Source of the DNA: a virus
Reading direction: 5' to 3' (one strand)
DNA length: 43,733 bases
IMG/VR virus record: IMGVR_UViG_3300037104_000207
Location: 1 to 43,733 of that record
This document shows, one piece after another, positions 230 through 42,687 of this stretch. Each line of letters opens with the position of its first letter. Positions within the stretch are counted from its first letter, which is position 1. The position numbers were made by a program, and so were the translations under genes. The notes under the pieces were generated by a model that was not told where the DNA came from, did not search any database, and was given only the letters and a program-made list of their open reading frames with translations.

Positions 230-333
230 GGTTCACCTTTATTTTGTGCGGCTTGTTTTGCGTGGACTGCCGCTATCGCCGCACGTTGCCAGCGGGCAAT
301 CTCTATCAGAACCAGTAGGCGAATGTCACTCAT
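226..333 (-). CDS. Small helical phage protein (35 aa)
   Basis: The ATG at 333-331 overlaps the stop of the 115-aa gene upstream, and the TGA overlaps the next ATG. The peptide is a predicted amphipathic helix (LLVLIEIARWQRAAIAAVHA) with a polar tail. No known family. The evidence for the gene is the two ATGA junctions in a tightly packed series; codon usage is too short to judge. Confidence 0.45.
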   Translation of the reverse strand: MSDIRLLVLIEIARWQRAAIAAVHAKQAAQNKGEP

Positions 334-677
334 AATTCGCTCACGTCGCTAGGGGTGCCCCACAATGTCGGGCGCCCCATCTTGCCGAATGAACCCTTGC
401 GGGGTTCGCCCTTGGATACGCAGTCGGCCAGGTCATGCCGTGCCAATGCCTGCAGCGCAGCGAACAAGCGTATGCGTGCGGCTTTGCCGGCGTCGGTGGT
501 GGCGTTCTCTTTAGCGAATAGCCGTTCCGCCAGCGTGGTAGTGTCGATCGTAGCTGGCCTGACTACGTTGGCCACAAGATAGCGGCGGACGTGGCCGGCA
601 ACCTTGGGATAGGCAACCTTCCACGCTTGATCGGGCGCCAGTAGGCGTTCCCAAAATGTCGATTGTGATAGGCTCAT
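330..677 (-). CDS. Hypothetical phage protein, 115 aa
   Basis: I place the start at the ATG at 677-675, preceded by GAAGGAGTGACC; an upstream in-frame ATG would lengthen it by 17 residues but lacks a ribosome binding site. The product is soluble and mainly helical, beginning MSLSQSTFWERLLAPDQAW, with basic patches (HVRRYL, RIRLFAALQALARH) that could suit nucleic-acid contact. No family recognised. The stop overlaps the start of the 35-aa gene. Confidence 0.65.
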   Translation of the reverse strand: MSLSQSTFWERLLAPDQAWKVAYPKVAGHVRRYLVANVVRPATIDTTTLAERLFAKENATTDAGKAARIRLFAALQALARHDLADCVSKGEPRKGSFGKMGRPTLWGTPSDVSEL

Positions 678-792
678 GGTCACTCCTTCGATAGGTTGTT
701 GAGCAAGGCGCGGGCTTCTACGATCCATTCATTCATGGACTGGCAAGCGTCGTCACCATCCCAGTCAAGCCCTTCGCCCCGCTGGTGCGTTT

Positions 793-3461: not shown

Positions 3462-3478
3462 GCGCAATATTGTTGCGC
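3462..3478. promoter_or_regulatory. 17-bp palindromic operator, site 1
   Basis: GCGCAATATTGTTGCGC: perfect 6-bp arms GCGCAA/TTGCGC around a 5-bp centre. The same motif recurs at 3657, 3672, 3741 and 11070, with a degenerate copy at 6830. Inferred to bind a dimeric regulator. Confidence 0.6.
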
Positions 3479-3534
3479 TATCCCTGCCGCTCCCTGGCCA
3501 CCTGTACCCCGTGCTCGTGTTTCCCCGCATTCGG

Positions 3535-3654
3535 GCAAAACCCGAATAATGTTCCATAATCTTGTAATTTTATTGCGCCGCGCGGTATTATTGCGCGCAA
3601 GCAAAACCCGAATAATGTTCCATAATCTTGTAATTTTATTGCGCCGCGCGGTAT
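3535..3654. repeat. 54-bp perfect direct repeat, two copies
   Basis: 3535-3588 and 3601-3654 are identical over 54 bases (starting GCAAAACCCGAATAATG and ending GCGCCGCGCGGTAT), with a period of 66 bp. Each unit carries GTAATTTTATTGCG, which also occurs at 11041. Only the first copy is followed by TAT, so that it completes a TTGTAA-N18-TATTAT promoter. Non-coding iterated sequence of this kind is typical of replication origins, packaging sites or regulator-binding arrays. Confidence 0.9.
3562..3591 (+). promoter_or_regulatory. Rightward promoter candidate inside the repeat
   Basis: TTGTAA (3562-3567), an 18-bp spacer and TATTAT (3586-3591) on the plus strand. A degenerate operator (GCGCGG-TATTA-TTGCGC, 3580-3596) overlaps the -10, the same arrangement as at 6813. 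Confidence 0.4.
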
Positions 3655-3656
3655 CC

Positions 3657-3688
3657 GCGCAATATTATTGCGCGCAATAATCTTGCGT
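3657..3688. promoter_or_regulatory. Two overlapping 17-bp palindromic operators, sites 2 and 3
   Basis: GCGCAATATTATTGCGC at 3657-3673 is perfect. It shares two bases with GCGCAATAATCTTGCGT at 3672-3688 (one mismatch). The 17-mer CGCGCAATAATCTTGCG at 3671-3687 is repeated exactly as the -35/-10 spacer of the capsid promoter (11069-11085). The overlapping sites suggest cooperative binding. Confidence 0.6.
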
Positions 3689-3740
3689 ATTCCGTTGTAA
3701 ACCATTGATAACACACATTATTTATAAATCGGTCCTGGTC

Positions 3741-3757
3741 GCGCAATATTATTGCGC
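3741..3757. promoter_or_regulatory. 17-bp palindromic operator, site 4
   Basis: GCGCAATATTATTGCGC, identical to the copy at 3657-3673. It lies just downstream of an AT-rich stretch with a weak rightward promoter (TTGTAA at 3695-3700, N17, TTATTT). Confidence 0.6.
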
Positions 3758-3772
3758 AACAAAAAGACCGGG

Positions 3773-3790
3773 GGGTACGCCGGCGTACCC
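3773..3790. repeat. 18-bp perfect palindrome upstream of the small terminase gene
   Basis: GGGTACGCCGGCGTACCC is perfectly self-complementary with no loop, so it is more likely a protein-binding or cleavage site than an RNA hairpin. About 92 bp lie between it and the small terminase start. Phage packaging sites often lie near this gene, which makes it a candidate; there is no direct evidence. Confidence 0.6.
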
Positions 3791-3845
3791 TTGCCTTCGA
3801 TCGGCGTGTGCGCTTTTTTCTCCAAATATTCTCGCACGCGGCGAT

Positions 3846-3874
3846 TTGACAATGGAACCGCGCCGTGCTAACGG
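3846..3874 (+). promoter_or_regulatory. Promoter candidate for the terminase operon
   Basis: TTGACA (3846-3851), a 17-bp spacer and TAACGG (3869-3874). The -10 is poor. The predicted start point lies close to the ATG at 3882, so the gene may instead be served mainly by the upstream candidates at 3562 and 3695. Confidence 0.35.
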
Positions 3875-3881
3875 GGGCACG

Positions 3882-4418
3882 ATGGGAACGGAACTTACCG
3901 AAATAGAGGAATATGGTCCTGCCATGAGCGCCCTGACGGCGCTTCAGCGGGAGTTCGTCTATCAGTGGTGCGAGCACCCGAATTACAACGGAGCGCAGCT
4001 TGTGGCGGCGGCCGGTTTTCAGGGGAACGCCAACACGCTGCGGGTCACCGCGCATCGACTGACGCACGACGAAAAAATTCTTGCAGCGATGAATGAGGAA
4101 GCCGGTAAGCGGATCAAGACCGGAGGGCTGATCGGTGTGCAGGCGATCATCAAGATCGCGCTCAATGAGCAGCACAAGGATCATTTGAAGGCGGCACTCG
4201 CGCTGCTCGACCGCACCGGCTTCCACGCATTGAGTGAACACAAGGTCACAGTTGACGACAAGCGCCCGCAGACGAAAGCGGAGTTGGTCGAAGCGGTGCG
4301 TCGTGTCGCAGCCGAGGCTGGCCTGACGGCGGACGCAGCGGAAAAGTTGATCGGACAAGGCGCGACGGACGTGGTAGACGCCACGTTCGAGGAAATCCCC
4401 AACGTGGAGGACTTGTGA
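3882..4418 (+). CDS. terS: Terminase small subunit
   Basis: Binds the packaging site on phage DNA and delivers it to the large terminase. I start it at the ATG at 3882 (preceded by AACGGGGGCACG), giving 178 residues; the frame is open further upstream but that part is operator sequence. Residues about 15-80 form the helix-turn-helix-like DNA-binding region of small terminases (TALQREFVYQWCEHP, then GAQLVAAAGF and LTHDEKILAAMNEEAGKRI), followed by a helical oligomerisation region and an acidic tail (DATFEEIPNVEDL). Position immediately upstream of the large subunit, with three small genes between, supports the call. Its stop overlaps the next start. Confidence 0.85.
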   Translation: MGTELTEIEEYGPAMSALTALQREFVYQWCEHPNYNGAQLVAAAGFQGNANTLRVTAHRLTHDEKILAAMNEEAGKRIKTGGLIGVQAIIKIALNEQHKDHLKAALALLDRTGFHALSEHKVTVDDKRPQTKAELVEAVRRVAAEAGLTADAAEKLIGQGATDVVDATFEEIPNVEDL

Positions 4419-4990
4419 TGGCTAGGAAAATATTCGGGTGGGCGTCGGTTGCTCTGTGGGTACTTCTAGTCGTGGGTGCGATCTGCGTGACTGCCACCTT
4501 GGCGAACGCGACGGAGCGGCGGCATGTCGTGCATCACCACTACCGGCATCATGTCGTGCGGCACCACGTCAAGCACCACGTTCGTCATGTCGTGCATCGC
4601 CACTTCCATCGGCGTGTTGTGCGCCGGGTAGTCGCCGCTCCCTCGGTTTTCTTCAGTGGCGGCCTGGTCGAGCAAGCGCGAGCCTATTTGGGCGAGACGG
4701 CGGCGCAGGTCGGGGTGCGGCGTAATCTGTGGTGCGCAGCCTTCATGAACAAACTGTTGAACGGGGGCACGCACTCCGACCTGGCCGCGAGCTACAGTCA
4801 CTATGGGCGGCCGGCGTCGGCGGGCTGCGTCGGCTGTATCGCGGTGACCTCGCGGCGGGGCGGCGGCCATGTTGGAGTTGTCACCGGCTGGCAACGCAAC
4901 AATCCAATAATCGTCAGTGGCAACCACGGGCGCCGCGTGGGCGAGGGGGTCTATCCGCGTACCCGAATTGTGTCCCTGCGCTGGCCATAG
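4418..4990 (+). CDS. Exported CHAP-like cell-wall hydrolase (TIGR02594 type) with His-rich linker
   Basis: Likely a peptidoglycan amidase or endopeptidase acting in the periplasm. The ATG at 4418 overlaps the small terminase stop, with GGAGG upstream. Domains of the 190-aa product: N-terminal hydrophobic signal or anchor (residues 8-30); a His-rich stretch at 36-64 with 14 His in 29 residues; then a TIGR02594/NlpC-P60-like domain from about 82, with Cys106 in LWCAAF, His151 in GGHVGVVTG and the SGNH segment at 167-170 as the apparent catalytic set. The ending RIVSLRWP matches this family. Unusually, it sits between the terminase subunits, far from the main lysis cassette. Two membrane-protein genes follow, so it may be part of a second lysis unit or a virion-associated enzyme. 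Confidence 0.75.
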   Translation: MARKIFGWASVALWVLLVVGAICVTATLANATERRHVVHHHYRHHVVRHHVKHHVRHVVHRHFHRRVVRRVVAAPSVFFSGGLVEQARAYLGETAAQVGVRRNLWCAAFMNKLLNGGTHSDLAASYSHYGRPASAGCVGCIAVTSRRGGGHVGVVTGWQRNNPIIVSGNHGRRVGEGVYPRTRIVSLRWP

Positions 4991-4999
4991 GAGTTTGCG

Positions 5000-5194
5000 A
5001 TGTATAGTCTCTTTGATCGACTGCGTGATCTGCATGTGACGCTTCAGTGGGCGACGTTCTACGCCGGCTGGTTCGTGCTGCTGCTGATCTTCGCCTGGAA
5101 TGCCTGGCACGCTCACCGCCTCAATGCGCTGCGGGCGCGGATCGTGGTACTCGAAGCGCACATCGAGGCGCTGCAACCAACGGGAGTTCGCTGA
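5000..5194 (+). CDS. Small membrane protein with C-terminal coiled coil (64 aa)
   Basis: The ATG at 5000 follows AGGAGTTTGCG. One strong transmembrane segment (about residues 18-36, FYAGWFVLLLIFAWNAW) is followed by an amphipathic heptad region (LNALRARIVVLEAHIEALQ). This is the shape of a small inner-membrane spanin-like or holin-accessory protein. The stop overlaps the next start (TGATG). Direct linkage to the upstream wall hydrolase suggests a lysis or envelope role; no family assigned. Confidence 0.65.
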   Translation: MYSLFDRLRDLHVTLQWATFYAGWFVLLLIFAWNAWHAHRLNALRARIVVLEAHIEALQPTGVR

Positions 5195-5358
5195 TGTCAA
5201 AGTTCAAACGACTGATCCCCCCACACGCCATCGCCATCTTCCTGGTGGTGTCGCTCCTGCTCGCGCTCGACACCGGCCACTACATTCTCGCTGCTCTGTG
5301 CGGTGTCGGGGTGATCGTCGGCGCGACCGCGATGGGCTGTAAAATCCTGAAGCTCTGA
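5194..5358 (+). CDS. Small two-pass membrane protein, holin-like (54 aa)
   Basis: Start and stop overlap both neighbours by the ATG/TGA arrangement. A basic N-terminus (MSKFKR) precedes two hydrophobic segments (residues about 11-27 and 30-48) and a short basic tail (CKILKL). Size and topology fit a small holin or pinholin-like peptide, and the neighbouring hydrolase fits that reading. No sequence family recognised. Confidence 0.6.
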   Translation: MSKFKRLIPPHAIAIFLVVSLLLALDTGHYILAALCGVGVIVGATAMGCKILKL

Positions 5359-6809
5359 TGGCCGATCTTAAAGCAACGCTCAAGGCCGTCGAAGACCTGC
5401 GGAAGTTTCGCCGGTTCAATCAGATCGAGTTCTTCGAGCCGTACCCGAAGCAGGTGGACTTCTACGCGCTCGGTGCCCGCAAGCGCGAGCGGATGCTCAT
5501 GGCCGGCAACCAGCTTGGCAAGACGTACGCCGGCGCCGCCGAGGTCACCCACCACCTGACAGGAATTTATCCCGACGACTGGAACGGACGGCGGTGGGAC
5601 CGGCCGGTACGCGGATGGGCGGCCGGTGAAAGTTCGCTGCTGGTCCGCGACGTGCAGCAGAAACTTCTCTGCGGCGAGCCGGGCGTCGATGCCGAGTTCG
5701 GCACCGGCATGATCCCCAAGCACCTGTTTGTGGACAAGCCCTCCCTGGCCCGTGGTGTCACTGACGCCTATGACACCATTCAGGTCCGCCACAAGTCGGG
5801 CGGCATCTCGGTGCTCCGCTTCAAGTCCTACGAACAGGGCCGGAAGAAATTTCAGGGTGAGACGATCGACTTCGCGTGGGGCGACGAAGAACCACCCCTC
5901 GATGTCTATTCCGAAATCCTGACCCGCATCACGGCCACGAAGGGAATGGTGTTCATCACCTTCACGCCGCTGCAGGGCATGTCGCTTGTTGTCGCCCGCT
6001 ACCTCAATGAGCCGTCCGAGGATCGCGGCTACATTACCATGACGATCGAGGACGCCAAGCACATTGCGCCCGAAGATCGGGCGAAGATTATTGCCGGCTA
6101 CCCGGCGCACGAACGCGATGCTCGCGCACGCGGCATTCCGATGCTCGGCAGCGGCCGGGTCTTCCAGGTGAGCGAGGAAGCAATTCTCGAACCCACGATC
6201 GACTTCATCCCCGAACACTGGTTCAAAATGTGGGCGCTCGACTTCGGTATCGGCCATCCGTTCGCGGCGATACTCGGTCTGTACGACAAGGACGCCGACT
6301 GTATCCACATTCATGCGGCCCTGCGCTTGGTCGATCTTTCGCCCGACACTTCGCCGCCGATGCAGCACGCAAAGCCGATGAAGGCGATAGCCGCCAATGT
6401 CCCGGTCGCCTGGCCGCAAGACGGCACCGCACGCGATAAAGGATCGGGCAAGCAACTCGCTGCGCTCTACAAGGCCGAGGGCCTGCAGATGCTACCGGAG
6501 CACGCGACGTGGCCGGATGGTTCGATTTCCACAGAAGCCGGCATCATGGAGATGCAGGACCGGATGACTTCCGGCCGCTTCAAGGTGGCGGCGCACCTGT
6601 CGCAATGGCTCGAAGAATTTCGTCTGTACCACCGCAAGGATGGGATTATTGTCAAGGAACGTGATGACCTTATGAGCGCGTCCCGCGTGTTCGTGATGGC
6701 CAAGCGGTTCGCCAAGCAGGTTGTGCTCGGCAACAAAACTTCGTCCCGCAAGCCGCAATCTTATATCGCGGAAGGGACTTTGGAACTAGACACCGGCTAC
6801 GATGATTAG
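5358..6809 (+). CDS. terL: Terminase large subunit
   Basis: ATP-driven DNA packaging motor and headful or site-specific nuclease. In this 483-residue protein the ATPase carries Walker A at 50-56 (GNQLGKT, preceded by MLMA) and Walker B at about 168-179 (ETIDFAWGDEEP). The C-terminal RNase H-like nuclease begins with WALDFGIGH (Asp295), followed by the PQDGTARDKGSGKQL and KERDDLMSASRVFVMAKR segments that supply later acidic residues. The length is normal for podovirus large terminases. The ATG overlaps the upstream stop. It is followed by a promoter at 6813, so downstream genes need not depend on read-through. Confidence 0.93.
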   Translation: MADLKATLKAVEDLRKFRRFNQIEFFEPYPKQVDFYALGARKRERMLMAGNQLGKTYAGAAEVTHHLTGIYPDDWNGRRWDRPVRGWAAGESSLLVRDVQQKLLCGEPGVDAEFGTGMIPKHLFVDKPSLARGVTDAYDTIQVRHKSGGISVLRFKSYEQGRKKFQGETIDFAWGDEEPPLDVYSEILTRITATKGMVFITFTPLQGMSLVVARYLNEPSEDRGYITMTIEDAKHIAPEDRAKIIAGYPAHERDARARGIPMLGSGRVFQVSEEAILEPTIDFIPEHWFKMWALDFGIGHPFAAILGLYDKDADCIHIHAALRLVDLSPDTSPPMQHAKPMKAIAANVPVAWPQDGTARDKGSGKQLAALYKAEGLQMLPEHATWPDGSISTEAGIMEMQDRMTSGRFKVAAHLSQWLEEFRLYHRKDGIIVKERDDLMSASRVFVMAKRFAKQVVLGNKTSSRKPQSYIAEGTLELDTGYDD

Positions 6810-6812
6810 ACC

Positions 6813-6846
6813 TTGACTTGGGGTGTGCCGGGCAATAATGTTGCGG
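6813..6846 (+). promoter_or_regulatory. Promoter with degenerate 17-bp operator
   Basis: TTGACT (6813-6818) with ATAATG (6835-6840, 16-bp spacing) or TAATGT (6836-6841, 17-bp). The -10 lies inside GGGCAA-TAATG-TTGCGG (6830-6846), a version of the GCGCAA-N5-TTGCGC operator with one mismatch per arm. It would drive the paralogous pair and the portal group. Confidence 0.7.
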
Positions 6847-6871
6847 CGCTATTCCCAAAATGGAGATTTTC

Positions 6872-7462
6872 ATGTCAAATTTGGATCAGGTGTTCGGCGT
6901 AGGCCACAAGACTGATGCCGCAGGCAAACCCATCGAGCAAGGCATCGGGAGTGCGGCGGCGCTCGCCAGCCCGCTGCAGAAAGCTGCCGACCAAGCTGCC
7001 GCCACGGCGGTAAAGGCACATGAGCGTGCCGATGCGGCTGCGGCGCACGCTACGAAACTGGCGCAAGAAGCTGTCGTTGCCGACAACAATGCGAAGGCTG
7101 CTGCCGACGCTGCTGCGGCCGAGAAGGCCGCGACCCCGGCGCCGGCTCCTGTCCAGGCCGACAACCCGGCTGTGGTTCCTGCCTCGGCCTTGCCGGCTTC
7201 GACCCCGGTTGTCCCGGCTTCGACTGTCCCGGCTGCGGCTTCGTCCATGCCCGCTGATCAGCCTGTTGTGCCGGCTTCGGCGCCGGCCAGTGCGCCATCT
7301 CCCGCTGGTACGCTGCCGCCCGCTACCCCGGTTGTTCCGGCGCCGGTCGCTGCGGAAACGCTGCCGCCTGCTACCCCGGTTATTCCGGCCGCCCATAGCG
7401 GCATAGTCGCGCATCTCAAGGCGCTGCTCGCGGAAGCCGAGGCTACGATTACCAACCTGTAA
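6872..7462 (+). CDS. Ala/Pro-rich protein with shared GKPIEQGIGSAA motif (196 aa)
   Basis: I choose the ATG at 6872 because GGAG lies 7 bases before it; an ATG at 6860 has no site. Residues about 4-27 carry VFGVGHKTD...GKPIEQGIGSAA, also found in the next gene. The middle (28-90) is an Ala-rich helix with heptad character. The C-terminal half is Pro/Ala/Val repeats (VPAS, and LPPATPV twice), ending in a short helix (GIVAHLKALLAEAEATI). No known family. Its position between terminase and portal suggests a minor virion or assembly protein. Confidence 0.75.
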   Translation: MSNLDQVFGVGHKTDAAGKPIEQGIGSAAALASPLQKAADQAAATAVKAHERADAAAAHATKLAQEAVVADNNAKAAADAAAAEKAATPAPAPVQADNPAVVPASALPASTPVVPASTVPAAASSMPADQPVVPASAPASAPSPAGTLPPATPVVPAPVAAETLPPATPVIPAAHSGIVAHLKALLAEAEATITNL

Positions 7463-7474
7463 ACGGAGGACTGA

Positions 7475-7804
7475 ATGGCTGACGAAAAAACGGAAGTAAA
7501 GCTGCCGAACCACATGACGGCCGAGGAACTTATCGCCAGCGGCAAGTCGCCGGAACAGGCGAAGAAGATCATGTCCGATCGTGTGTTCGGTGTCGATCAC
7601 AAGGTTGACGAGGCGGGTAAGCCGATCGAGCAAGGTATTGGCTCGGCGGCCAATCCGTTCAAGTCCACCCACGAAGCTGCGCTGAAGAAGGCGCAGGAGG
7701 CGAACGCTCGCCTCGGCCTCGGTGCTTCGCCGGAAGTGATCGCGTCGATCGTCGCGGCGGTCATGTCCGCGATGGAAGCCAAATCGGCAGCGAAGGACCT
7801 CTAG
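7475..7804 (+). CDS. Small protein sharing the GKPIEQGIGSAA motif (109 aa)
   Basis: The ATG at 7475 follows AACGGAGGACTGA. The N-terminal 30 residues are polar (LPNHMTAEELIASGKSPEQA). Residues about 31-56 contain VFGVDHKVDEAGKPIEQG and GSAA, matching the previous gene, and an Ala-rich helix ends the protein. The two genes agree far better in protein than in DNA, which points to selection on the motif. Function unknown; likely a head-assembly or minor virion component by position. Confidence 0.75.
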   Translation: MADEKTEVKLPNHMTAEELIASGKSPEQAKKIMSDRVFGVDHKVDEAGKPIEQGIGSAANPFKSTHEAALKKAQEANARLGLGASPEVIASIVAAVMSAMEAKSAAKDL

Positions 7805-7806
7805 TT

Positions 7807-8004
7807 ATGCCCGCCACGAACCCCAAGAACGAACCGAACGCTCTGTCCGTCGATCTTGGGGTTCCGGCGGGCGCCGTCGATATGGAAACAGAGGACGAAA
7901 AGAAAAAGCGCCTGCTGCAACAGCAGCAGGAAATGATGGGCCGTTCCGGTTCATCGGTGTATGGTGCCGCTTCGATGTCATTGCTAGGACCGCCCCTTGT
8001 CTGA
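7807..8004 (+). CDS. Small protein upstream of portal (65 aa)
   Basis: The ATG at 7807 lies 2 bases after the upstream stop, and the end overlaps the portal start by 8 bases. It has an acidic/basic central stretch (METEDEKKKRLLQQQQEMMG) followed by a Gly/Ser-rich end. Podoviruses with this type of portal often have a short polar gene just before it. No function assigned. Confidence 0.65.
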   Translation: MPATNPKNEPNALSVDLGVPAGAVDMETEDEKKKRLLQQQQEMMGRSGSSVYGAASMSLLGPPLV

Positions 8005-9811
8005 CACCAACCCAGGCTATGACGGCACAAGCTTCCGCGTCCAATCGGCGCGGGAGATTGATTGCGTTGACAGGTCCATGCAGTTGTTTTCGCAGGTGAC
8101 GACCTATCGGAACATGGGCTTCGCCGGCCAATGGGAAGAAGTTGCCAGCCTGATCGAGCCGAGTGCGCGCAATACCTTCTACTACGGCAACTACAATACG
8201 CCGGGCATGAAGAAGACGCAGCACCAGATTGACGCCACGGGCATGATGGCCAACGCCCGCTTCGCCGCGATCTGCGACAGCTTGCTCACTCCAAGCAACA
8301 TGATTTACCAGCGTGTCGCGGTGAACGACGAATACGTTATGAAAGACCGCAAGACGCGCCTTTGGTGCGAGCAGGTCACGAACATCCTCCACAACGAACG
8401 GTATGCGCCAACGGCAAACTTCGCCGCGCAGAACCATGCTAATTTCCGTTCGCTCGGCGCCTTCGGCAATCTCGCCATGTTCATCGATGAACTTGATGAC
8501 CCGGAGGCTACCGGACTACGCTACGCTGGCCTGCCGATGGGTGAAGTGTTCTTCATCACCGATCACCAGAACCGCGTGATCGGTTTTATCCGCTGGTTCA
8601 AGTTTACGGCCCGCCAGGCGCATATGAAGTGGCCCGGCCAGTTGCCGCCGAACTTGCAGACGGCGTATCAGCAGCAGAGCGAGAACAAGTACAACTTCAT
8701 TCATGTCGTCATGCCTCGTGAGCGCGACGACTATGACCCGCAGCGGCTCGACGCACGCGGCAAGCGGTGGCAGTCCCTCTATATCTCCATCGAAGGCCGC
8801 TGCCTGATGTACAAGGCGGGGAAAGATATCGAAGGTGGCTATCGCACGTTCCCCCTGGCCGCTGGTCGATACTCGCAGGCGCCGGATGAAATCTACGGGC
8901 GTGGGTGGGCGATGGACGTGATGCCGTCGCTGAAGACCCTCAATGCGCAGAAACGAATTTTCTTGCGAGCCGGGCATCTCGCGGTTGACCCAATCAAGCT
9001 GACACGCGATGATGGCATGGTCGGCTTCAAGAACCGCCCCGGTGCCATGAACCCTGGCGGCGTTTCCGAGGACGGGAAAGTTCTGATCCACAATATGCCG
9101 ATTGGCGACGTGCAGATCGGCAAGGAGATGATGCAGGAAGAACGTGCTATCATCAACGATAACGCGCTTGTGACCCTGTTCCAAATTCTTGTGAAGACCC
9201 CGCAGATGTCCGCGACTGAAGTGATCGAGCGGGCGAACGAGAAAGGTATCTTGCTGGCGCCGACGATGGGCCGGCAGCAGGGCGAATATCTTCATCCGAT
9301 GACGATGCGGGAGATGGATATTCTCGCGTATCAGGGGAAACTCCCGCCGATGCCGCCACGGATGCTGGAAGCGATGAAAGCGACGAAGGGCAAATTCCAT
9401 CTCATTTTCGACAATCCGTTGTCGCGGCTTGCCAAGGCGCAAGAAGGCGCCGGCTTCCTGCGTACGCTTGAGAGCGTTCACCCGATCGCGCAAGCGACTG
9501 GCGATCCGTCGATCTACGACCCGTTCAATTTCAAGGTCGCTGTCCCTGCTCTGGCGCAGCAGAATGCCGTGCCGGAAAGCTGGATGGCCGACGCCGATCA
9601 GATGACGCAGAAGGCGCAGGCCCGTGCGAAGGCGCAAGCCGCCGATCAGCAGATGAAGAACTTGCCGAACCAGGCGGCGATGGTGAAGGCGCAAGCGTTC
9701 GCCGCGAAGAACAACCCGCAGGGTCAGCCGGGGCAACCGCAAATGGGCCAACAGCCTCAACCGGGGCAACCGCAAATGGGCCAACAGCCTCAACCGGGGC
9801 AGCCGCAATAA
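7997..9811 (+). CDS. Portal (head-to-tail connector) protein
   Basis: Forms the dodecameric ring at the capsid vertex through which DNA enters and leaves. At 604 residues it matches the podovirus head-tail connector family (PF12236), with recognisable segments WEEVASLIEPSARN, ATGMMANARFAAICDSLLTP and GRGWAMDVMPSLKTLNAQ. The start appears to be TTG at 7997, with AGGA 8 bases upstream inside the preceding gene; the first in-frame ATG lies 27 codons later and would cut conserved sequence. The C-terminus is a Gln/Pro/Gly-rich tail made of 11-residue repeats, longer than typical and probably disordered. Confidence 0.92.
   Translation: MSDTNPGYDGTSFRVQSAREIDCVDRSMQLFSQVTTYRNMGFAGQWEEVASLIEPSARNTFYYGNYNTPGMKKTQHQIDATGMMANARFAAICDSLLTPSNMIYQRVAVNDEYVMKDRKTRLWCEQVTNILHNERYAPTANFAAQNHANFRSLGAFGNLAMFIDELDDPEATGLRYAGLPMGEVFFITDHQNRVIGFIRWFKFTARQAHMKWPGQLPPNLQTAYQQQSENKYNFIHVVMPRERDDYDPQRLDARGKRWQSLYISIEGRCLMYKAGKDIEGGYRTFPLAAGRYSQAPDEIYGRGWAMDVMPSLKTLNAQKRIFLRAGHLAVDPIKLTRDDGMVGFKNRPGAMNPGGVSEDGKVLIHNMPIGDVQIGKEMMQEERAIINDNALVTLFQILVKTPQMSATEVIERANEKGILLAPTMGRQQGEYLHPMTMREMDILAYQGKLPPMPPRMLEAMKATKGKFHLIFDNPLSRLAKAQEGAGFLRTLESVHPIAQATGDPSIYDPFNFKVAVPALAQQNAVPESWMADADQMTQKAQARAKAQAADQQMKNLPNQAAMVKAQAFAAKNNPQGQPGQPQMGQQPQPGQPQMGQQPQPGQPQ
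9728..9808 (+). repeat. 33-bp in-frame tandem repeat at the portal C-terminus
   Basis: Two identical 33-bp units (9728-9760, 9761-9793) plus a partial third encode GQPQMGQQPQP repeats. Perfect identity implies recent expansion or ongoing slippage. Confidence 0.9.
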
Positions 9812-9822
9812 TCGGAGGGTAG

Positions 9823-10152
9823 ATGGTAGAAGTTTCGGAGGGGTTCCGGCTATTCGAGTTTATCCGCCAACGGCGGGCGAGCTACAAACAGGCCAAGAAC
9901 GCAGACTTCGCTCTCTCTGCGCCGGCTACTCAAAATGTGCTCATCGACCTTGCTGACTTTTGCCGCGCAGCAGAGAGTTGCGCCTGCTTTGACGAGAACG
10001 GTCGGTACGATCATGAGCGCACGTTGATTATGGAAGGTCGCCGCGAAGTGTGGCTGCGCCTGCAGAACCACTTCAATCTAACAACGCAACAACTCTATCG
10101 CCTCGCAACGGGGCAGACGTTTGAAACAACAGGAGATGACGATGCCAGGTGA
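9823..10152 (+). CDS. Bbp19-like phage protein (109 aa)
   Basis: The ATG at 9823 is preceded by CGGAGGGTAG. The sequence FIRQRRASYKQ, then VLIDLADFCRA with FDENGRYDHERTLIMEGRREVWLR split across the middle, matches the small Bbp19 family found beside portal genes in Bordetella phage BPP-1-like podoviruses. Biochemical role unknown; a structural or assembly role is suggested by context. Its 3' end overlaps the start region of the scaffold gene. Confidence 0.75.
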   Translation: MVEVSEGFRLFEFIRQRRASYKQAKNADFALSAPATQNVLIDLADFCRAAESCACFDENGRYDHERTLIMEGRREVWLRLQNHFNLTTQQLYRLATGQTFETTGDDDAR

Positions 10153-10996
10153 AAATGACGCTGCCGCCGCTGCTGCTGCCGCCGTTGCTGCTCCCGGTCC
10201 CGCTTGGTTCGCCGGTAAGGTGGACAAGGAAATCACCGATAGTTGGACCGCGAAGGGTTACGACATCAACGACCCGGTGAAGGTCGCCACCGAACTGACC
10301 AAAGCGTACAAGAACGCCGAGGGCCTGTTGGGTCGGCCGAAGGACCAGTTGATCTACGTCCCGACTGACTTCACGAAGGAGCCGGATGCGGTCAAGGCCG
10401 CCTTCCAGCGTCTCGGTGCTCCGGTCGATGCGAAGGACTACGACTTCCCGGCGTTGAAGGACAAGGACGGCAAGGTGACGAACATGGCGCTCGAAAATGC
10501 GCTGCGTGCTGTCTCCGGTGAAGCGTTACTGACGAAGGATGCGGCGTCGAAGGTCGCGGCGGCTGTCGTCAAGACCCAAGCTGACGCGGCGACGGCGCAG
10601 AAGGCCGAGGAAGCCGCTGCGCTCACAACGGAACGCGCCACCCTGGCCAAAAATTGGGGCGTCACCCCGGAACGACTGCAAGAAGCGCCGAATATGGTTG
10701 TCGCCAAGGCGGCGGCCGCGGCGTTAAAAATAACGCCGGAAATTCTCAACGCGCTTGAGAAATCAGCCGGGTACGCGAAGACGATGGAGATGTTCCGAGA
10801 AATCGGCGCTCGTATGGGCGAGGACAAGTTCATCAAGACCGAAGTGGATGGCAAGACGCAGATTGCGTCGAAGGAAGCGGCGCAGGCTCGCTTGGCCGAA
10901 TTGAAGCGCGACACGGCTTGGGTTGCTCGTTTGAACAACGGCGACACGGCTGCGAACCGCGAGTTGACGGACCTCAATACGATTATCTCGGCCTAG
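10142..10996 (+). CDS. Capsid scaffolding protein
   Basis: Guides procapsid assembly and is then lost. I start at the ATG at 10142 (AGGAG six bases upstream), giving 284 aa. After an Ala-rich N-terminus there is a conserved region (WFAGKVDKEITDSWTAKGYD, then AYKNAEGLLGRPKDQLIYVP), followed by a long Ala/Lys/Glu helical stretch (about 120-200) and a charged C-terminal end. Composition, length and position directly before the capsid gene fit podovirus scaffolds. A terminator follows the stop. Confidence 0.8.
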   Translation: MPGENDAAAAAAAAVAAPGPAWFAGKVDKEITDSWTAKGYDINDPVKVATELTKAYKNAEGLLGRPKDQLIYVPTDFTKEPDAVKAAFQRLGAPVDAKDYDFPALKDKDGKVTNMALENALRAVSGEALLTKDAASKVAAAVVKTQADAATAQKAEEAAALTTERATLAKNWGVTPERLQEAPNMVVAKAAAAALKITPEILNALEKSAGYAKTMEMFREIGARMGEDKFIKTEVDGKTQIASKEAAQARLAELKRDTAWVARLNNGDTAANRELTDLNTIISA

Positions 10997-11019
10997 TTTT
11001 CTAGCATAAGTGTTTGTTG

Positions 11020-11041
11020 CGCCGGGGGTAATTCCCCGGCG
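11020..11041 (+). terminator. Rho-independent terminator after the scaffold gene
   Basis: 8-bp GC stem CGCCGGGG / CCCCGGCG (11020-11027 with 11034-11041), 6-base loop, followed by TAATTTTATTG. It separates the portal/scaffold transcript from the capsid promoter 22 bp downstream. Confidence 0.8.
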
Positions 11042-11062
11042 TAATTTTATTGCGTGGGCCTG

Positions 11063-11091
11063 TTGACACGCGCAATAATCTTGCGCATAGT
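11063..11091 (+). promoter_or_regulatory. Capsid gene promoter with embedded 17-bp operator
   Basis: TTGACA (11063-11068), an exact 17-bp spacer and CATAGT (11086-11091). The spacer is CGCGCAATAATCTTGCG, identical to 3671-3687, and the perfect operator GCGCAA-TAATC-TTGCGC occupies 11070-11086. A bound regulator would cover the space between -35 and -10, so it would either block or reshape the promoter. Confidence 0.8.
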
Positions 11092-11151
11092 GCGATCACT
11101 GGCCCCCCTGTGTGGATACGGCTGTCCCCGAATTAAACACAGGATCGCGCC

Positions 11152-12066
11152 ATGAGCGAACTTATCCCGGCACTGTTTACGACCCAATTTTCTTCGCTGC
11201 TCGAACTCAAGCTGCAGCAAATGGGGTCCAAGCTTCGCGGTCGCGTGCGCGAGCAGACCCACGTTGGCAAGCAGGCTTCCCCGGTCAACCAGATCGGCGC
11301 CATTCAGATGAAGGCGCCCGCCGGCCGCTTCGCTCCGAAGAACCGCACCGATGCGGACTTCACGCGGCGTTGGGTCACCCCGCAGGACGGCGAAATCGAT
11401 CAGTTGATCGACAGCTTCGATGAACTGCGCACGATCATCGATCCCAAGAATATGTACGTCGAGAACGCCAGCATGGCGGTCGGGCGTGGTTGGGACGATG
11501 CGATTATCGCCGCGTTCTTCGGCTCCGCGCAGACTGGCGTGGACGAGGGCGCGATGGTCACCGAGATTTTCAACACCACGAATTTCCAGATTGCGTCCAC
11601 CTTCGGCGCGTCTTCGGCGGCCGGTCTTACCGTCGCCAAGATGATCGAAGCGAAGCGCATTCTGCGCCACTACCACGTCGATCTGGAAGTCGAGCGCCCG
11701 ACAATGGTGATCGGCTCGCAGCAGGAGAGCGATCTTCTGAACCAGACGCAGGTTGTGTCCACCGAGTTCAACGACAAGCCGGTGCTTGTTGACGGCAGCG
11801 TGAAGCAGTTCCTCGGCTTCGACATCGTGATGTCGGAACGCCTGGCGACCGCTTCGAGCGTCCGCAACGTCCCGATCTTCGTCAAGTCCGGTATGCACCT
11901 TGGCATGTGGCAGGACATGACGAACCGCATCTCGATCCGCAACGACCTGTCGAGCGAGCCTTACGACCTCTACACCAAGACTTCGTTTGGTGCCACGCGC
12001 CTGCAGCCCGGCAAGGTCATCTCGATCCTGTGCTCGGATGCTTCGGCCGGCGACATCACCCCGTAG
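11152..12066 (+). CDS. Major capsid protein
   Basis: Main shell protein, 304 residues, of the Phage_capsid_2 type (PF19821) found in podoviruses of this group. It starts at ATG 11152 (MSELIPALFTTQFSSLLELK). Recognisable parts are the N-terminal arm, the loop MKAPAGRFAPKNRTDADFTR, the central VGRGWDDAIIAAFFGSAQTG and the C-terminal LYTKTSFGATRLQPGKVISI. It has its own strong promoter preceded by a terminator, as expected for the most highly made protein. The 60-nt leader has no strong AGGAG; CAGGATCGCGCC lies before the ATG. Confidence 0.9.
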   Translation: MSELIPALFTTQFSSLLELKLQQMGSKLRGRVREQTHVGKQASPVNQIGAIQMKAPAGRFAPKNRTDADFTRRWVTPQDGEIDQLIDSFDELRTIIDPKNMYVENASMAVGRGWDDAIIAAFFGSAQTGVDEGAMVTEIFNTTNFQIASTFGASSAAGLTVAKMIEAKRILRHYHVDLEVERPTMVIGSQQESDLLNQTQVVSTEFNDKPVLVDGSVKQFLGFDIVMSERLATASSVRNVPIFVKSGMHLGMWQDMTNRISIRNDLSSEPYDLYTKTSFGATRLQPGKVISILCSDASAGDITP

Positions 12067-36691: not shown

Positions 36692-36913
36692 CTATGGGGT
36701 GGCTTCCGCCACCTTCGGCACGGCTGACCAAATGACACTTTTGCCGACGCGCTTGTACGCGATCAGCTTTTTCTTGCGAAGCTTTTGGAGGGTCCGATCG
36801 ATCTGCATTTTCTGCGTGTCGTCGGCCTGGTAAACGATGCACAGGCTGGTGTAGGTGTGCTGGTTCCCGTTGAGGATTACCGCCTCAAGAACCTTCTGAT
36901 CGAGTTTGAGCAT
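36692..36913 (-). CDS. Winged-helix-like small protein (73 aa)
   Basis: Start at ATG 36913 behind CAGGAGGGACGA. The pattern LDQKVLEAVILNGNQHTYTS followed by QIDRTLQKLRKKKLIAYKRV and SVIWSAVPK is the helix-helix-wing arrangement of small DNA-binding proteins. It could be a transcription regulator of the replication operon and so a candidate for the palindrome-binding factor, but that link is guesswork. The 155 bp downstream (36537-36691) shows no confident gene. Confidence 0.65.
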   Translation of the reverse strand: MLKLDQKVLEAVILNGNQHTYTSLCIVYQADDTQKMQIDRTLQKLRKKKLIAYKRVGKSVIWSAVPKVAEATP

Positions 36914-36964
36914 TCGTCCCTCCTGTTGAATACCGCGCCGTTGTTTCATAGGACCGCGCCGCTG

Positions 36965-41467: not shown

Positions 41468-42043
41468 ATGCGCACAATGGCAAAAACGGTCCACAGGCGC
41501 GCTTATATCAACCCGTTGCCCGGATACCCGGAAGCTGCGCAGCGAGCCGACATTCTAAAAGCGTTTGGAACTGTCGGGAAATGGTATGTCGAAAGCCGCA
41601 ATGTGACCCGCGCCGATTTCATTCACCATTTACGCAAGGGAGACGAGGCCATAGTCGCCAGAAGCGGGTGTTTGGCGAAAGCTGCAGGCAGAATTGATAG
41701 CCGGATGGCCGATTTTATGGACGCTCGCGGCGACATTCATGCGAAGTGCTGCGTTCTGATTTGTGCCGTTACGGGCTTTGGATCGGCAAACGAATGGGCC
41801 GCGATGAAGGCCGATGCGCGTTCCTTCATGTTGGCGCAGCGGTCGGTCAAGAATGGCTCCAAACGCCAGCACAAGATGACCGATGCGCAGGTAAGGCGCA
41901 TCTTGGAAATAAGCGACAGCAAGCGGTACACCAACGATCTGCAGCGCCTAACGGCACTCAAAAAGGAAGGTATCGAGATTGGCCGGACCTTCATGCTTAC
42001 CAAGGTGCCAATCATTGCCCGCGAGCGCGGGATAACACTTTAG
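41468..42043 (+). CDS. Protein resembling a catalytically dead serine recombinase fold (191 aa)
   Basis: The order of segments recalls the resolvase domain: an opening strand (RAYINPLPGYPE) where Y-x-R-V-S would be, a helix (AAQRADILKAFG), then RADFIHHLRKGDEAIVARSG with GRIDSRMADFMDARG, matching the conserved GD..VV...L.R......... EL..RG block. The catalytic Ser and most Arg residues are absent. The C-terminal 60 residues (MTDAQVRRILEISDSKRYTN) look like a helix-turn-helix. It could be a regulator derived from a recombinase. Starts at 41468 or 41477; no ribosome binding site precedes either. Confidence 0.7.
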   Translation: MRTMAKTVHRRAYINPLPGYPEAAQRADILKAFGTVGKWYVESRNVTRADFIHHLRKGDEAIVARSGCLAKAAGRIDSRMADFMDARGDIHAKCCVLICAVTGFGSANEWAAMKADARSFMLAQRSVKNGSKRQHKMTDAQVRRILEISDSKRYTNDLQRLTALKKEGIEIGRTFMLTKVPIIARERGITL

Positions 42044-42051
42044 GAGCGCCC

Positions 42052-42687
42052 GTGAAACCTCGCCTACTTGACCTTTTCTGCTGCGCCGGCGGGGCTTCCG
42101 AAGGCTATGCGCGTGCGGGCTTTGAGGTCGTCGGCGTGGATATTGAGCCGCAGCCTCACTACCCCTACGAGTTCCACCAGGCCAACGCGCTGACCTTTCC
42201 GCTGGATGGTTTTGACGCGATAGCCGCATCGCCGCCCTGCCAGGCATATACGCGCTGCCAACGCATTAGAGACAATGCACATGCCGATCTAATATGGCCC
42301 ACCCGGTTCCGGCTGCGGGCCGCAGGCGTCCCGTATGCCATCGAGAATGTCGTTGGGGCACCCCTAGTAAATCCGATTGAACTTTGCGGCGCGATGTTCG
42401 GCCTGAGAGTTTACCGGCACCGGCTCTTTGAATGCTCTTTCCCCATTGAAGCGCCGCACCACCCGGATCACGTCGCACCTGTCCGCAAGATGGGCCGACC
42501 GGTTCGCGACGGCGAATTTATGCACGTTGTTGGAAATTTCTCTGGCGTGGCGCTGGCGCGCAAAGCAATGGGTATAGATTGGATGGTGCGCGACGAATTG
42601 CGCGAGGCGATACCGCCTGCCTATACCGAGTATGTTGGCCGAGCGATGCTCGCACACATGCGATTGTGTGCGGCTGCGGCTGAATAA
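42052..42687 (+). CDS. C5 cytosine DNA methyltransferase, compact
   Basis: Transfers methyl from S-adenosylmethionine to cytosine. GTG start at 42052 with AGGAG upstream. In this 211-aa product, motif I is DLFCCAGGASEG (7-18), motif IV ASPPCQAYT with catalytic Cys63, motif VI AIENV (Glu98), motif VIII YRHRLFE, and motif X region YVGRAMLAHM. The target-recognition region is very short (about 50 residues), as in small phage enzymes. No partner restriction enzyme is present, so protection of phage DNA is the likely role. Confidence 0.88.
   Translation: MKPRLLDLFCCAGGASEGYARAGFEVVGVDIEPQPHYPYEFHQANALTFPLDGFDAIAASPPCQAYTRCQRIRDNAHADLIWPTRFRLRAAGVPYAIENVVGAPLVNPIELCGAMFGLRVYRHRLFECSFPIEAPHHPDHVAPVRKMGRPVRDGEFMHVVGNFSGVALARKAMGIDWMVRDELREAIPPAYTEYVGRAMLAHMRLCAAAAE

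Follow-up and report, generated by a model that had tools for sequence, protein, structure and literature searches.

Phage promoters that are served by regulators of the host have already been described. In Bacillus phage phi29, the host global regulator Spo0A is thought to bind directly to the Spo0A boxes at phage promoters, suppressing the lytic programme in a given physiological state. In cyanophages, binding of the host PhoB to pho boxes was shown by gel shift, and genes such as that for DNA polymerase are switched on by the host PhoBR under phosphate stress (PMC10976474). The timing of late genes in phages that have no recognisable late regulator is still largely an open question.

Here we analysed a window of 43,733 nucleotides, positions 1 to 43,733 of the IMG/VR virus record IMGVR_UViG_3300037104_000207, in which 17-bp dyad operators overlap promoters, as they do in related phages. 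By computation we defined the motif and its positions, its conservation in related phages and its match to chromosomal lrp promoters. The best explanation, to which we give a probability of roughly 0.7, is that the late promoters are wired to a host Lrp-type repressor; the binding, the repression, the signal, the titration step and an alphaproteobacterial host are all inferred from sequence. The literature searched, from which subscription papers were mostly absent, contained no account of late phage promoters that carry Lrp operators.

Results

Candidate operators in the window

The earlier note on this DNA had described a palindrome, GCGCAA-N5-TTGCGC, shared by the control region and two late promoters. 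A pattern check of the window found every copy that it listed at its given place, four of them with perfect arms, but the list was incomplete and 11039-11055, 3562-3578 and 3628-3644 were added to it (Table 1). In total the window holds about ten sites, including the near copies at 3562, 3580, 3628, 3672, 6830 and 11039, and every one is intergenic, a point that the note had proposed to check. Ahead of the small terminase gene seven of them form an array, and the others are located singly or in pairs on the post-terminase and capsid promoters. The weak sites at 3562 and 3628, which belong to a 54-bp direct repeat or border on it, reach 20 bits with the host-derived matrix described below.

Allowing up to two mismatches, 14 matches were found in the window compared with 6.6 ± 2.3 in shuffled sequences, and perfect matches numbered four for the real pattern and none for a reversed-pattern control. 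With a position matrix, eight real sites, the eighth being the added 11039-11055, scored at least 19 bits, whereas everything else in the window stayed at or below 14.5 bits and the maximum in the reversed sequence was 14.7 bits.

Table 1. Candidate operators, promoters, repeats and neighbouring genes in the window.
Feature	Position	Strand	Remarks
Operator GCGCAATATTGTTGCGC	3462..3478	.	Perfect palindrome; control region; pattern scan
Direct repeat, 54 bp, copy 1	3535..3588	+	Perfect repeat
Degenerate operator TTGTAATTTTATTGCGC	3562..3578	+	Within repeat copy 1; 20.0 bits with host lrp-promoter matrix
Degenerate operator GCGCGGTATTATTGCGC	3580..3596	+	Two arm mismatches; pattern scan and host lrp-promoter matrix
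Direct repeat, 54 bp, copy 2	3601..3654	+	Perfect repeat
Degenerate operator TTGTAATTTTATTGCGC	3628..3644	+	Within repeat copy 2
Operator GCGCAATATTATTGCGC	3657..3673	.	Perfect palindrome; pattern scan
Operator GCGCAATAATCTTGCGT	3672..3688	+	One arm mismatch; overlaps the 3657 operator at a 15-bp offset that recurs in other phages
Operator GCGCAATATTATTGCGC	3741..3757	.	Perfect palindrome; pattern scan
Small terminase gene (phrog_51)	3882..4418	+	First gene past the operator array
Post-terminase promoter TTGACT-N17-TAATGT	6813..6841	+	After the large terminase; L087 arranged alike
Operator GGGCAATAATGTTGCGG	6830..6846	+	Two arm mismatches; core is the -10 of the post-terminase promoter
Operator GCGTAATTTTATTGCGT	11039..11055	+	31 bp upstream of the 11070 operator; counterpart in L007 at 30 bp
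Capsid promoter TTGACA-N17-CATAGT	11063..11091	+	-35 TTGACA 11063-11068; -10 CATAGT 11086-11091
Operator GCGCAATAATCTTGCGC	11070..11086	.	Perfect arms; inside the -35/-10 spacer of the capsid promoter
Major capsid gene (phrog_3437)	11152..12066	+	Downstream of the capsid promoter

Position of the operators on late promoters

Inspection of the post-terminase promoter bore out the claim that the 6830 copy covers the -10, since the site is centred on TAATGT (6836-6841) behind TTGACT (6813-6818). At the capsid promoter the 17-bp spacer, 11069-11085, is indeed identical to 3671-3687, but the palindrome does not fill it exactly as had been stated; it lies one base further right, where it touches the -10 at its first base. 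The same two placements are found in other phages. The operator centre lies 14-15 bp after the first base of TTGAC, with the spacer filled, for the 11070 site of the window and in L178, L161 and L007, and 25 bp after it, with the core as the -10, for the 6830 site and in L087, L164, L166 and L179. A separate scan of the collection for TTGAC with a perfect operator 0-30 bases behind it yielded 16 stretches, and near-duplicates were collapsed by eye; the gap was exactly 12 in 6 of the 15 distinct matches (P of about 1e-4 after correction), and three gap-12 matches (L103, L126 and L166) directly precede capsid genes. Placed over the -10 or between it and the -35, these operators have the positions of repressor sites. 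No strong -35 aligns with the sites of the control region.

Two other elements were seen around the capsid promoter. The gene block before it closes with a strong terminator-like hairpin of 13 pairs (11016-11045, + strand), whose T tract is overlapped by the 11039 operator. A leader motif, GGCCCCC-x-GGA[TC]A[AC]GGCC, immediately precedes the capsid ribosome-binding site, at 11094-11125. It resembles an RNA hairpin, and of about 40 relatives (L007 to L070) most have it conserved before the capsid gene, some of them in tandem copies. No Rfam family matched the window, this leader motif included.

Conservation in related and unrelated phages

The palindromes are kept at matching promoters of related phages, both in IMG/VR relatives and in site-bearing viral contigs; this too was a check that the earlier note had proposed. 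In the capsid-gene relative L007 (IMG/VR, 83% identity) a tandem pair of degenerate sites surrounds TTGACA. When viral contigs were scanned for the pattern, 89 loci were obtained, more than 30 of them with site clusters, and many belong to phages related to that of the window. Arrays directly precede the small terminase gene in L094, L112, L129, L162 and L164 (protein identity 32-39%), a site follows the large terminase in L087, and sites precede the capsid gene in L007, L091/L178, L149/L179, L161, L103, L126 and L166. Similar arrays are also found near terminase or portal genes of unrelated phages, whose terminases are of the phrog_15, phrog_38 and distinct phrog_2 types. An alignment-wide consensus from 105 sites reads RCGCAA-BAWTV-TTGCGY with the centre always A or T, and the preferred site-to-site offsets are 13, 15 and 31 bp.

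The distribution is patchy. Sites are absent from about 75 of 80 capsid-gene relatives, many of which are short fragments, and from ten distant alphaproteobacterial prophage regions (about 30-41% portal identity), thus that phage family does not carry the sites in general. Relatives by terminase and portal occur in alphaproteobacterial genomes and Rhizobium phages. Among named phages the short-array BLAST returned chance matches only and the control region had no match; the Rhizobium phages RHph_Y25, N2 and N3_2 and the Achromobacter phage CF418P1, which match by terminase, were set aside, since they differ in gene content and do not repeat GCGCAA-N5-TTGCGC. Viral contigs hold few relatives of the small terminase or the 1029-2087 protein.

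Match to chromosomal lrp promoters

In a blind test, a matrix built from eight window sites only was run over 102 kb of sequence, taken from 30 alphaproteobacterial genomes around an Lrp/AsnC-family gene. All of the best 12 matches and 21 of the best 30 fell just upstream of the Lrp gene (19 genomes), whereas 59 of 60 column-permuted matrices gave at most 5 upstream matches and one gave 15. A wider phage matrix found 20 matches within 150 bp upstream of the Lrp gene (19 of 30 genomes) against one elsewhere in the 102 kb, and no site above the threshold was found for 11 of the 30 lrp genes. Across a mixed set of AsnC-family loci (n = 30), upstream matches occurred only on members of one gene group, the group of which the 30 genomes above carry a close orthologue. 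In the reciprocal direction, a matrix from 17 chromosomal lrp-promoter sites gave, as its nine best window matches, the phage operators, all intergenic, and ten window matches of at least 15 bits compared with 0 or 1 per shuffle; the 17 sites had themselves been found with the phage matrix, so this is a consistency check and not independent proof.

The alphaproteobacterial Lrp is, among curated families, closest to E. coli Lrp, at 127 bits, which is under the NCBIfam equivalog cut-off of 233, and it is also closest to 2gqq, a solved Lrp structure. An orthologue is present in 102 of 190 alphaproteobacterial genomes. The binder of the palindromes is most likely the host Lrp.

Chromosomal copies of the site

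Scanning about 85,000 bacterial and archaeal genomes with GCGCAABATTATTGCGC gave at least 120 loci. Among the matches listed many are from Rhodobacteraceae, and about half of the 120 loci adjoin phaA/phaB-type genes; in several, a weaker additional site follows the same centre rule at a distance of about 1.3 kb. Other neighbours among the matches listed are pntA (in Rhodobacteraceae), panB, gltB, ilvB and a PLP-dependent aminotransferase gene, and in Betaproteobacteria an lrp gene lies 24-57 bp downstream of exact sites. Assignments of gltB (L322), ilvB (L286) and pntA (L207) were made via NCBIfam and concern single loci. In E. coli, Lrp is known to target gltB and the ilv and pnt genes. Found near phaA/phaB, pntA, gltB and ilvB, the site is a candidate for the operator that an Lrp-type regulator may use in many Alphaproteobacteria, and our search of the literature found no published motif for such a regulator.

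Rhodobacteraceae loci with an exact site near phaA/phaB (L225, L263 and L268 among them) suggest an Lrp-type regulator of the PHB synthesis genes; a reading of the binder as a PHB regulator was dropped once pntA, gltB, ilvB and lrp itself turned up as neighbours. A perfect site is present in 8 of 385 alphaproteobacterial genomes, one of which is the search centre and was picked for its sites, compared with one genome for the reversed control. The highest numbers of perfect chromosomal sites among the genomes sampled were five in G049 (a Rhodospirillaceae MAG) and three in G334 (Alphaproteobacteria).

Discussion

Alternatives to the proposed host Lrp-type repressor

The earlier note had proposed a regulon run by one phage protein. 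Its first part is supported, in that one DNA-binding specificity links the control region with at least two late promoters, but the phage-encoded binder is not. In an unlikely alternative, a phage-encoded repressor or late activator would own the sites, and their likeness to the host Lrp site would be convergence or mimicry. The array adjoins divergent gene blocks, as in phage switch regions, and the best candidate would be the small protein 330-728 (- strand, 132 aa), winged-helix-like by eye with a weak DUF7344 match, which has homologues in the site-bearing L164, L184 and L186 and none in the site-less 45-kb relative G003. This family is, however, found in only some site-bearing relatives, and no binder gene was seen to co-occur with the sites as in a lambda-type switch, many records being fragments; a search run with no positive control did not find the family in 15 unrelated site-bearing phage records, seven of which are 36-83 kb long. 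The two candidate binders that the note had named, a winged-helix-like protein, whose reading frame is 36692-36949 and not 36692-36913, and a recombinase-like protein at 41468-42043, have no homologue in site-bearing relatives and contigs, several of which are fragments. Profile searches for a phage regulator gave weak HTH-type matches only. A phage-encoded AsnC protein was also sought, and the domain search, positive in 11 of 14 control genomes, detected none of this family either in the window or in 33 further phage records, nearly all of which carry the sites. Moreover, a phage regulator leaves the matrix matches at chromosomal lrp promoters unexplained; arrays occur in phages of differing terminase families, and the phage matrix finds the Lrp/AsnC-family promoter in about two thirds of the alphaproteobacteria tested. 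As a separate observation, a reading frame next to 41468-42043, at 41746-42687 (+ strand), is DNA cytosine methyltransferase-like by eye.

The sites may also belong to the host Lrp in another role, mainly as an activator or a DNA-wrapping protein, or the control-region array may be a replication or packaging element. E. coli Lrp activates as well as represses, which counts against certainty of repression; an Lrp octamer would be compatible with the spacings of 13, 15 and 31 bp, the control-region array has no strong promoter that fits it, and the array adjoins the small terminase gene, a frequent location of packaging signals. We nevertheless regard these roles as improbable, because the late-promoter operators keep a fixed phasing on the -10 or in the -35/-10 spacer, a repressing position, and because sites are also found at the capsid, portal and post-terminase promoters, where a pac or ori function needs none.

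The idea that GC-rich arms and AT cores arise by chance or composition at intergenic promoters has a negligible probability and was refuted by the shuffle and reversed controls, together with the conservation at matching promoters and the strict centre rule BAWTV over 105 sites, even though the site core overlaps -10-like AT-rich sequence and promoter context raises the background somewhat.

A model for late gene control

In the reading that we favour, repression by the host Lrp, the palindromes would be operators for a conserved alphaproteobacterial member of the Lrp/AsnC (feast/famine) family that most resembles E. coli Lrp. At two late promoters the operator lies over the -35/-10 region, and for that reason bound Lrp should exclude RNA polymerase there and keep the late genes off. 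Lrp proteins form octamers that wrap DNA, and for this reason binding to the control-region array is probably cooperative; with growing phage copy number the array may also attract Lrp. The late promoters would open when the repressor is diluted or when the amino-acid state of the host weakens Lrp binding. The most likely reading is that late expression would be tied to the host amino-acid state and perhaps to phage copy number.

A stronger version, which we hold to be rather unlikely but not far-fetched, is a copy-number sensor, in which Lrp holds the late promoters, each replicated genome adds about ten operators and the titration of Lrp turns the late genes on together. If so, replication would trigger late expression via a host repressor and with no phage regulator, the host Lrp targets would be deregulated too, and unrelated phages would have converged on the same scheme. 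More generally, if the host Lrp is in control, particle production would be tied to the amino-acid status of the cell in mostly uncultured phages, and the operator motif would give a hint to the host group from sequence only.

Comparison with known systems

Lambda-type CI/Cro operators are similar in being 17-bp dyads that are arrayed at a control region and overlap promoters, but there the regulator is phage-encoded, whereas in the present case none of the phage genes fits and the motif corresponds to the site of a host regulator. The motif resembles Lrp/AsnC operators of the E. coli Lrp type in that its sites are multiple, with preferred offsets, and occur at lrp as well as close to gltB, ilvB and pntA. 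The palindrome core A-B-A-W-T-V-T appears to agree with the E. coli Lrp consensus, A-x-A-W-T-x-T. The differences are the outer GCGC/GCGC arms, the regulator, which would be of an alphaproteobacterial group, and the location of the operators in a phage genome and on late promoters. As with Spo0A in phi29, a host global regulator would act on phage promoters, although host, regulator and promoters all differ. The cyanophage PhoBR system is alike in that phage promoters carry sites of a nutrient-responsive host regulator, sites that here are predicted, and it differs from the present proposal, in which Lrp would act on late genes for structure and packaging from operator positions that suggest repression.
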